Positions 18,373-19,891 of a stretch of DNA of 64,000 nt are shown in pieces. Position 1 is the first letter of the stretch. Every line of letters begins with the position of its first letter. Position numbers and translations under genes: made by a program. The notes below the pieces were generated by a model, which was given only the letters and a program-made list of their open reading frames with translations, made no database searches and was not told the origin of the DNA. The stretch is from Paracoccaceae bacterium (lineage in GTDB: Bacteria > Pseudomonadota > Alphaproteobacteria > Rhodobacterales > Rhodobacteraceae): the NCBI GenBank assembly GCA_018222585.1, contig JAAFAB010000003.1, forward strand, positions 437,781-501,780. The letters are read 5' to 3'.

Positions 18373-18389
18373 ATTTCGGGATCCGGGTG

Positions 18390-18418
18390 CCGGACGCCTG
18401 CCGCGGCAGGGCGTCCGG
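18390..18418 (+). terminator. GC-rich hairpin after the aminotransferase, possible terminator
   Basis: CCGGACGCC...GGCGTCCGG arms enclose TGCCGCGGCAGG 17 bases after the stop. There is no good T run, so termination is only inferred from position. Confidence 0.4.
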
Positions 18419-18460
18419 GCTTGGTGCTATCTGGCAGCGCCTGCCTGACCATGCGGGCGC

Positions 18461-18607
18461 TTAGTCATCTTTTAGGTCTTCGTGCTGATTTTTATTGCTT
18501 TTCTCTTCGAGGTCAGCGGGTTTTTTCGACGTGCGCGGCTGCCGGGCTGCTTCGAAAACCTTGCTGAGACTGAGACCGCCCCCAGACGGTGACTCGTTCG
18601 CAGACAT
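18461..18607 (-). CDS. Possible small basic/acidic hydrophilic protein, 48 residues
   Basis: The frame opens with ATG at 18607 preceded by GAGG at a good distance (8 bases) and runs to TAA. The product starts MSANESPSGGGLSLSKVF and ends in a highly charged Lys/Asp/Glu tail (KSNKNQHEDLKDD), with no membrane segment. The region is AT-richer than its surroundings. It is divergent from the XRE/dCTP-deaminase-like gene, with 235 bases between them, and might be a partner. A longer frame (18472-18684) on the same strand in another phase looks less protein-like. Evidence is limited to start signal and composition. Confidence 0.4.
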   Translation of the reverse strand: MSANESPSGGGLSLSKVFEAARQPRTSKKPADLEEKSNKNQHEDLKDD

Positions 18608-18842
18608 CTTTCTACCTCGTTTTCTGGTGTGACCTTTCTTATGGTTAGCGCCACCATGTTGCCCTGCGCGTCAAGTTCTGGCAAGAAATAATAGTATTTG
18701 CTTGTCGTTTTGTGTAAAACTGCAATGAGCGGCGTCTGTAGTGGGTGTTCAGCCCGCTATCTGCGTCCAAGAATTCCACAAATGGAACATAGATATACAG
18801 TATAGTAATACTGATATACGATTTGCGAAACTGGAGGCGGCC

Positions 18843-19748
18843 ATGAGCGTGTTTGGAGATGTACTGAAGGAAGTGGTCAAGCGGCGGGGGCTGACGCAAC
18901 GCGAACTGGCGATGAAGCTGGGCAAGACCGCGGGCTATATCTCTCATCTGACCACGGGGCGGCAGAAGACCGTCGACCTCGAGCTGTCGTCGCAACTGGC
19001 CAATGCCCTGGATACCGGCACGACCTTCTGGAGCGATCTGTTCCATGATGAAGAGACCAACCGCGCCCGGTCGGTGGACAGCTACCTGTCCGAACTGGAC
19101 CTGCGCCAGACCGTCGACGTGCCGCCGGGGATCCTGGTGGATTTCCAGATCGAGACGATGATCCAGGCCGCGCGGGACAGCGAATTCCTGTCGCGCAGCG
19201 CCTCGCCCGGGGAAGAGCACCTGTGGATCGACAATTTCGATGCCGAGCGGCTGCAGGCCAGTTCCTATGACCTGATCATCGGCGGAGTCTGGCGCGACAA
19301 GTCGGCCATGGACCGGGCCAAGTTCCTCTCCGAGCGTGATCTGTTCACCGTGCGCGCGCATTCCTACGAACTGGCCTTCACCCTCGAAACCATCTGTATG
19401 CCCGCCTTCATGCACGCCCGGGTCTCGCAGTCGGCCTCCTTCGCGCGCAGCGGGCTGATCGTGTCGCACGGGCCGATCGTCGATCCCTGCTTCGAGGGCG
19501 TTTTGACCGTGGCGGTGCACAACTACGGTGACGAGGATATCTCTATCCCGGTCGGCGATCCCTTCCTGACGCTGGTCTTCGAACGGCTGACCGCGATGCC
19601 GCAGAAGGCCCGCGAACTGCGGCCGGATCCCAGCCAGAACCGCCCCGTGGACGCCGAGGAACGCCGGCTGAGCACCGAGAACAGGCTGCTGCGCGAGAAG
19701 CTGGCGGCGATGGAGGCCAGGATCGCCGCCGCGACGCGCGACCCGTAA
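18843..19748 (+). CDS. XRE-family HTH regulator fused to a dCTP deaminase/dUTPase-like domain
   Basis: The 301-residue protein has three parts. Residues 8-65 are an XRE helix-turn-helix of HigA/VapI flavour (LTQRELAMKLGKTAGYISHL, then FWSDLF). Residues about 120-252 follow the dCTP deaminase fold: LQASSYDLIIGG, FTVRAHSYELAFTLETICMP, SASFARSGLIV, IVDPCFEGVLTVAV, then a C-terminal VGDPFLTLVFERL. Residues 270-297 are a heptad-like coiled coil. Aligned by eye to E. coli Dcd, S111 becomes A198, R115 is kept (R202), and the catalytic E138 is A224, so deamination is unlikely and nucleotide sensing is the natural inference. The start follows GGAGG. It is monocistronic and divergent from a small ORF. 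Confidence 0.8.
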   Translation: MSVFGDVLKEVVKRRGLTQRELAMKLGKTAGYISHLTTGRQKTVDLELSSQLANALDTGTTFWSDLFHDEETNRARSVDSYLSELDLRQTVDVPPGILVDFQIETMIQAARDSEFLSRSASPGEEHLWIDNFDAERLQASSYDLIIGGVWRDKSAMDRAKFLSERDLFTVRAHSYELAFTLETICMPAFMHARVSQSASFARSGLIVSHGPIVDPCFEGVLTVAVHNYGDEDISIPVGDPFLTLVFERLTAMPQKARELRPDPSQNRPVDAEERRLSTENRLLREKLAAMEARIAAATRDP

Positions 19749-19891
19749 GGCCGGGCGGCGCCTGACACGGGAACGGGCAGGGCCGGCGACCAAGTGCGCG
19801 CGTGATCCGCTGATGTCCGGGTTCCGGCTGCGGCTGCGGAACCCCCTCCGGTCTCGGGCGTTTTACCTCGCAGCCGCGCAGGGAGTCCGCC

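Follow-up and report, generated by a model that had tools for sequence, protein, structure and literature searches.

We identified, in the 64,000-nucleotide stretch of Paracoccaceae DNA analyzed here (the window), a gene whose 301-residue product, P0001, joins an N-terminal XRE helix-turn-helix (HTH) to a domain of the dCTP deaminase (Dcd)/dUTPase fold in which alanine stands in place of the catalytic glutamate. The sequence gives this domain order, the loss of the glutamate in three such fusions, the retention of the motif of a loop that serves Dcd as an allosteric switch, separate Dcd and dUTPase genes in the same genome, and the location of the gene in a small islet. On this basis we propose, with a probability of about 0.45, that P0001 is a one-component local regulator, in which a dead enzyme coupled to an HTH senses nucleotides, and that it acts on its own gene and on a divergent 48-amino-acid open reading frame (ORF). 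Features are listed in Table 1.

TABLE 1 Features of the fusion gene and its surroundings (window coordinates)
Feature	Position	Strand	Basis
Islet: small ORF and fusion gene, between aminotransferase and transporter genes	18373..19881	.	In 4 relatives of the genus, flanking genes are separated by about 120-160 bp
Divergent small ORF (sORF1), 48 aa, ATG preceded by GAGG; possible partner or target	18461..18607	-	ORF list
Candidate operator CAGTAT-N4-ATACTG, 30-45 bases before ATG	18798..18813	.	Perfect palindrome
XRE-Dcd fusion protein P0001, 301 aa	18843..19748	+	ORF translation
HTH_3 / XRE DNA-binding domain, residues 8-61	18864..19025	+	Pfam HTH_3, E 2.5e-9, 37.5 bits (cut-off 23)
Dcd/dUTPase-fold domain, residues 125-249	19215..19589	+	Pfam DCD, E 8.3e-12, 45.9 bits (cut-off 27); PDB Dcd chains; profile-profile comparison
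A198 (E. coli S111), S199 (S112), R202 (R115)	19434..19448	+	Alignments; E. coli chain
GLIVSHGP, residues 204-211, aligned with the base-binding/allosteric loop of Dcd; three fusions agree at 7 of 8 positions	19452..19475	+	Alignments
D214 (E. coli D128); Ala in relative P0002	19482..19484	+	Alignments
A224 replacing catalytic E138	19512..19514	+	Alignments; E. coli chain
C-terminal charged helix, probable coiled coil, residues about 268-297	19644..19733	+	By eye, translation; absent in P0003

An XRE head joined to a Dcd-like domain

The ATG of P0001 is preceded by GGAGG; an alternative in-frame GTG lies upstream at 18741, and the alignment of a relative, P0002, begins from the ATG. Both domains pass their Pfam cut-offs, which bears out the original prediction of an XRE HTH fused to a Dcd-like domain, and no single family model matched to P0001 covers both parts. 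The Pfam family matched in the second domain is named "dCTP deaminase-like" (PF22769), and the Pfam dUTPase model also exceeds its cut-off over residues 168 to 251 (28 bits versus 22). The more specific NCBIfam models are not reached: P0001 scores 66.7 bits against the 92.8-bit cut-off of the dCTP deaminase equivalog TIGR02274, two relatives score 42.5 and 37.8 bits, and the dUTPase model TIGR00576 gives P0001 20.6 bits against a cut-off of 102.55.

Profile-profile comparison (hhalign) matched the three fusions to 28 canonical Dcd sequences at 98.9% and to 3 dUTPases at 94.4%; the values for P0001 alone were 97.8% and 68.8%, respectively. For these comparisons the canonical Dcd profile was built without L053 and L086 and the noncatalytic profiles without L005, L032, L048, L113, and L115. 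By sequence profile, the Dcd-like domain of P0001 spans the whole Dcd fold. The best solved relative of P0001 is 9ln0, named dCTP deaminase (E value of 3.8e-9 with one sequence and 1.9e-28 with a three-row profile). This chain and the other nearest solved relatives, 9ln3 and 8y1w, which carry the same name, have methionine at the position of E. coli Glu138 in our alignments, so the name of 9ln0 does not settle its activity; a search of the open-licence PMC literature for the 9ln0 code found no paper on it.

Two relatives share the HTH and Dcd architecture: P0002 (locus L003; 289 aa), which is 37 to 38% identical to P0001 over 257 positions, and P0003 (locus L074; 264 aa), which is 25% identical. 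The HTH of P0003 scores 47 bits with the HTH_3 model, above the cut-off of 23, and that of P0002 scores 18.9 bits, below it. Proteins matching both domains were found in 1 of 22 genomes of the window's own genus, in at least 2 of 394 genomes drawn from the family (its own and G289), and in at least 3 of 390 drawn from the order (these two and G618); among the matches listed, its own genome was the only one in the class (385 genomes) and phylum (388 genomes, limit 1e-8) draws. The draws (G000 to G1399) overlap one another, and the family, order, class, and phylum counts come from the best 5 or 6 first-look candidates per genome, a depth at which distant fusions may be missed. G289 is the single genome sampled from its genus, and in the genus of G618 the match is confined to G618 itself (1 of 33 genomes).

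Mobile elements gave little. P0001 matched 8 of 50,697 phage records, all in single domains, and 5 of 72,556 plasmid records at an E value of 1e-3 (64 at 0.1); P0002 matched 4 plasmid records, and P0003 matched none of the plasmid records and none of the 50,697 phage records. We rejected an origin from phages or plasmids by direct match, since no phage or plasmid match covers 80% of P0001. Scans of genome contigs and a first viral scan found no relative of the fusion. A viral scan with the three-fusion alignment gave HTH-only matches, and one with the Dcd-domain alignment gave a single canonical viral Dcd (L085), which was used as a reference. Matches of P0001, P0002, and P0003 to PADLOC models are confined to residues 3 to 105, the HTH part, with none beyond it. 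Among the matches listed in a search of open-licence PMC papers, no title or abstract start was on an XRE-Dcd fusion or on the Dcd-like membrane proteins described below; PMC4108317 and PMC12487901, in the portions available, contain the searched terms yet have different subjects.

These searches bear on one alternative to direct nucleotide sensing, in which the dead Dcd domain would assemble into mixed trimers with host or phage Dcd or dUTPase subunits (or be bound by a phage protein), thereby changing DNA binding. The logic would be that of staphylococcal Stl, which is switched by a phage dUTPase (PMC4231751, in the part of that article available), and homology of the domain to both Dcd and dUTPase in the profile-profile comparisons is compatible with mixed assembly. 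In the same account, a dUTPase-superfamily protein is coupled to a repressor, as in P0001, but the Stl system consists of two interacting proteins, whereas P0001 has the superfamily domain built in. Against mixed trimers, the Dcd-domain matches of P0001 in phages and plasmids are only 26 to 34% identical, and the few single-domain phage matches provide no phage link. We regard this alternative as distinctly improbable.

The catalytic glutamate is lost and the switch-loop motif is kept

Using the numbering of the E. coli chain 1xs1, Arg110, Ser111, Ser112, Arg115, Asp128, and Glu138 correspond to S197, A198, S199, R202, D214, and A224 of P0001; alignment and chain numbering thus confirm an earlier by-eye assignment of E138, S111, and R115 to A224, A198, and R202. 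The replacement of the glutamate is identical to that in the chain common to 1xs4, 1xs6, and 2j4q, which has VLAFYN in place of the wild-type VLEFYN (Glu138 to Ala); we take these entries to be complexes with dCTP, dUTP, and dTTP. Across P0001, P0002, and P0003, the residues are A, G, and S at the Glu138 position, A, I, and S at Ser111, R, S, and T at Arg115, and D, A, and D at Asp128. The deaminase glutamate is therefore absent in all three fusions, and P0001 retains only the arginine of the Ser111/Arg115 pair. Because Arg115 and Ser111 are each kept in only one of the three and Asp128 in two, Dcd-like triphosphate binding may have been lost.

The original prediction proposed checking whether A224 is invariant among homologues. 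The alanine itself varies, and what is shared is the absence of glutamate, which neither homologue restores; a regulator without the deaminase glutamate is borne out. The overall reading is upheld in part: the fusion of an XRE head to a Glu-less Dcd-like domain, homologues that also lack the residue, and an ordinary Dcd and dUTPase in the host all stand, and A224 invariance does not.

The C terminus also departs from both enzyme families. The P0001 translation has no visible counterpart of the C-terminal RPYN...KYxxQQG stretch of Dcd and, by eye, no glycine-rich, P-loop-like tail of the dUTPase type. Within the superfamily, this glycine-rich motif occurs in dUTPases only, and its removal lowers dUTPase turnover about 720-fold (PMC4827122, in the part available). 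The host genome encodes a separate, ordinary tandem Dcd (368 aa) and a dUTPase. A role for P0001 as the cell's own deaminase or dUTPase was rejected on its sub-cut-off scores, its missing glutamate, and these normal genes elsewhere in the genome.

It is very improbable that P0001 is still an enzyme of some kind, such as a dUTPase-like hydrolase with a DNA-binding tether. P0001 does retain the R-S-G-L sequence and the motif 3 aspartate typical of dUTPases, and it passes the Pfam dUTPase cut-off (PF00692). These features and its superfamily are what it shares with trimeric dUTPases; against activity, it lacks their P-loop-like tail, falls far under the TIGR00576 cut-off, has a relative (P0002) with alanine in place of the motif 3 aspartate, and comes from a genome with normal dUTPase and Dcd genes. 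Set beside Dcd (TIGR02274, PF22769; E. coli 1xs1), P0001 has the whole-domain fold by profile, the motif 1 aspartate (SxD), D128, R115, and the G-rich hairpin, but it has neither E138 nor S111, lacks the RPYN...KYxxQQG stretch, is fused to an HTH, and scores below the family cut-off.

The best-conserved stretch among the three fusions is the motif GL[IF]VSHGP. Of 23 invariant positions in the Dcd domain (residues 125 to 249), 7 fall within residues 204 to 211, a clustering matched by 46 of 20,000 random placements; this statistic comes from three sequences, one of them only 25% identical, and the G-L and P-x-x-x-G elements are general to the fold. The motif aligns with the E. coli Dcd segment from G117 to the HVTA peptide, one residue shorter and with uncertain gap placement. 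In Dcd, an alanine of this loop forms a bond with the base, and thymine binding sends the HVTA peptide into the central channel, with a switch of all three subunits; the loop shifts between active and inactive trimer states upon dTTP binding (PMC4827122, in the part available).

That the fusions differ at the chemistry residues and agree at the switch loop is suggestive, and nucleotide sensing gains indirect support because conservation peaks on the base-binding/allosteric loop. The main competing explanation for this domain is that it serves only as an oligomerization scaffold in a conventional XRE autorepressor with no ligand to sense, or with one unrelated to nucleotides. The trimeric Dcd fold is ready-made for oligomerization, Arg115, Ser111, and Asp128 are not conserved among the fusions, and no nucleotide genes were matched nearby (see below), all of which a scaffold would accommodate; it accounts less well for conservation that is focused on the base-binding loop and not spread across the fold. 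We consider a scaffold unlikely and prefer sensing mainly because the fusions vary at the chemistry but agree at the switch.

In the sensing model that we favor, the Dcd-derived domain would have lost deaminase activity and retained the pyrimidine-nucleotide pocket loop, which in Dcd flips cooperatively in the trimer with dTTP as opposed to dCTP or dUTP. Ligand occupancy of the dead trimer would rearrange the N-terminal XRE heads, and the rearranged heads would switch binding to the AT-rich region at 18608-18842, which would control both the regulator's own gene and the divergent 48-aa ORF. Nucleotide binding, trimer formation, allosteric coupling, the operator, the target, the sign of regulation, and the biological role are all predictions of this model, and the role would perhaps be a response to an abnormal pyrimidine deoxynucleoside triphosphate pool. 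P0001 resembles XRE/Cro-CI one-component repressors in its N-terminal HTH_3 domain and its divergent intergenic region with an AT-rich dyad, and it differs from them in having a Dcd-derived domain as its C-terminal partner. We class the XRE-Dcd fusion as a new form of one-component regulator and not as a dCTP deaminase, and we regard the sensing interpretation as plausible. To our knowledge, direct sensing of deoxynucleotide pools has been described for few bacterial regulators.

A sporadic islet with a small ORF and a candidate operator

The fusion gene is a sporadic 1.5-kb islet. Its flanking genes, named aminotransferase and transporter from our reading of their translations, are separated in the window by 1.5 kb in which the fusion gene and its divergent small ORF lie. 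Twenty other genomes of the genus carry the aminotransferase gene, and in four of them this gap is 127 (L094), 158 (L096), 158 (L097), or about 120 bp (L099). The synteny is not universal, since in the 15 remaining genomes the transporter does not lie within 1.5 kb after the aminotransferase. The fusion gene has a GC content of 64.5% and the segment at 18373-18842 one of 52.6%, compared with 67.5% for the window. In the genus relative closest by aminotransferase identity (L093, 97%), the site (L093:1-1266) is taken up by another long ORF, with hydrophobic segments near its N terminus, that runs to the contig end; given this ORF, the site may be an insertion hotspot.

The 48-aa product of sORF1 is hydrophilic, and among the 21 genus loci compared (1.3 to 1.5 kb past the aminotransferase gene) the ORF was found in its own genome only. 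P0002 also has a divergent ORF, of about 52 aa, with GGGGAG upstream. Beside P0003, a codirectional 40-aa ORF (L074:9581-9703, minus strand) overlaps the start of the fusion gene; its product has a basic N terminus and one hydrophobic helix, with a mean hydropathy of 2.08. It is plausible, from the arrangement of the genes, that the divergent small ORF is a target of the regulator.

These small ORFs invite a different explanation, that of a toxin-antitoxin or abortive-infection style module in which the small ORF encodes a harmful peptide restrained by the XRE-Dcd protein. Each of the three fusions is adjoined by such an ORF (48, 52, and 40 aa) with a purine-rich ribosome-binding site, and a sporadically distributed islet would suit a module of this kind. 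Several observations argue against it: the three small proteins are unlike one another by eye, the orientation at P0003 differs, neither of the two small ORFs searched (those beside P0001 and P0002) gave a plasmid match, and the sORF1 product is hydrophilic. Further ORFs of at least 30 aa occur in the same regions, so such small ORFs arise by chance. We consider a module of this kind improbable.

The palindrome CAGTAT-N4-ATACTG upstream of the fusion gene is a candidate operator, although palindromes as good arise in 111 of 500 shuffles of the 100 upstream bases and in 205 of 500 shuffles of the 235-base region, so it is not significant. It is flanked by GATATAC direct repeats, 21 apart, a somewhat unusual arrangement (32 of 500 shuffles as good). 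The 5.15-Mb genome has no second copy at up to one mismatch, which says little in itself, because a control with the palindrome read backward finds three places; the window has one further site with two mismatches (2 matches versus 0.28 expected). A genome-wide regulon through the palindrome was rejected, with one site only in the genome, and control would therefore be local if the palindrome is the operator. P0001 and P0002 have a 13-mer, TTGTCGTTTTGTG, in common in their upstream regions (as good in 4 of 500 shuffles; of four comparisons, the other three were not unusual). We did not build on it, as it falls within the P0002 small ORF but not within the one beside P0001. A direct repeat, TCGTTTT[CG]TG, occurs at window positions 18617-18626 and 18705-18714, and its second copy falls within this 13-mer.

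Searches around the three fusions (the window, L073, and L074; 64, 19, and 18.5 kb) gave no match to the nucleotide-metabolism genes found near the membrane-anchored relatives described below. By eye, an RNase HII-like gene and then a DNA methyltransferase-like gene lie downstream of P0002, and P0003 is flanked by a monooxygenase-like gene and a leuB-like gene.

Glu-less Dcd-like proteins beyond the fusions

To place the fusions among their relatives, we compared 61 distinct Dcd/dUTPase-fold ORFs (75 HMM hits minus 14 duplicates). The glutamate is present in 30 of these, with Ser111 in 29 of the 30 and Arg115 in all 30. It is absent in 31: 3 dUTPases, the 3 fusions, and 25 Dcd-like proteins. 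These proportions are not a census, because the set was gathered with P0001-like queries. A hydrophobic 19-residue window (mean Kyte-Doolittle value of at least 1.6) is present in 20 of the 25 Glu-less Dcd-like proteins, compared with 1 of the 30 Glu-bearing proteins and none of the fusions or dUTPases. All 20 segments are C-terminal to the Dcd domain, and the other five Glu-less proteins score 0.99 to 1.59. Five extra plasmid proteins outside the count of 61 (L118 to L122) have A, A, S, S, and S at the glutamate position and hydropathy values of 1.64 to 2.89. In a phylogenetic tree, the 30 Glu-bearing rows split from the rest (support, 95/89), and the three fusions cluster at 83/88, with long branches flagged, among or beside the Glu-less membrane-type proteins. 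The latter (L002, L009, L034, L116, and others) share with the fusions the fold and the loss of E138, mostly with S111 and R115 as well, but they carry a C-terminal hydrophobic helix where the fusions carry an N-terminal HTH.

We searched the neighborhoods of 20 of the 21 genome-derived Glu-less loci (all but L044 in G976) and of nine plasmid regions, 4.5 to 16.2 kb in length, with genes first seen on the plasmid regions as queries. Relatives of uracil-DNA glycosylase (L123, L127, L128, and L135), of NTP pyrophosphohydrolase (L123, L127, L135, and L138), and of ImmA (L123, L127, L135, and L138) were each found in 4 of the 20 genome regions, a short hypothetical partner in 6 (L128, L129, L130, L132, L134, and L142), and adenylosuccinate synthetase in 3 (L124, L131 [weak], and L141); in 7 regions (L125, L126, L133, L136, L137, L139, and L140) the queries matched the Dcd itself only or nothing. 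Plasmid annotation gives ImmA/IrrE in 5 of the 9 regions (L116, L118, L119, L120, and L121) and uracil-DNA glycosylase in 3 (L118, L120, and L121). Around the fusions these queries matched nothing apart from the window's own Dcd domain, whereas several of the membrane-anchored proteins adjoin such genes.

A recurring cluster at L123, L127, L135, L116, and L118 to L121 combines an XRE HTH, an ImmA/IrrE peptidase, mostly a C1 peptidase, uracil-DNA glycosylase, and NTP pyrophosphohydrolase; some of these clusters add a thymidylate synthase, nucleotide kinase, or DNA base hypermodification gene. At L113, L114, L124, and L141, Glu-less membrane-type proteins of about 310 to 390 aa have adenylosuccinate synthetase genes nearby. 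The recurring cluster looks like a nucleotide- or modified-base-centered conflict system, and a PADLOC scan of six Glu-less membrane-type proteins matched no family. A dC-to-dU nucleotide theme is also found in the AvcID phage defense system; in the portion of PMC10511110 available, the AvcID toxin deaminates enzymatically, whereas the PADLOC matches of P0001 lie in its N-terminal HTH only.

Some of the membrane-helix relatives cluster with genes for uracil-DNA glycosylase, MazG-like pyrophosphohydrolase, thymidylate synthase, adenylosuccinate synthetase, and ImmA/XRE regulators. A broader and more doubtful idea, which we offer tentatively, is that Dcd has been converted into a catalytically dead, trimeric sensor of pyrimidine nucleotides, with the allosteric loop kept and the chemistry lost, to which different outputs are attached: a DNA-binding head in P0001 and a membrane helix in a widespread set of relatives. 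Such sensors would watch for abnormal dUTP/dTTP or modified-base pools, for example during phage infection. On the nine plasmid records, the Glu-less proteins are annotated as "hypothetical protein" in six cases and "deoxycytidine triphosphate deaminase" in three; the Glu-less membrane proteins would need reannotation as probable nondeaminases, and this wider set may be a more interesting lead than the fusion itself. If our reading of P0001 is correct, this regulator derived from a deaminase-dead Dcd would parallel in nature the E138A mutant made in the laboratory; it might serve as a biosensor for dTTP, dUTP, or dCTP and would be a clear example of an enzyme feedback switch put to new use in transcription.
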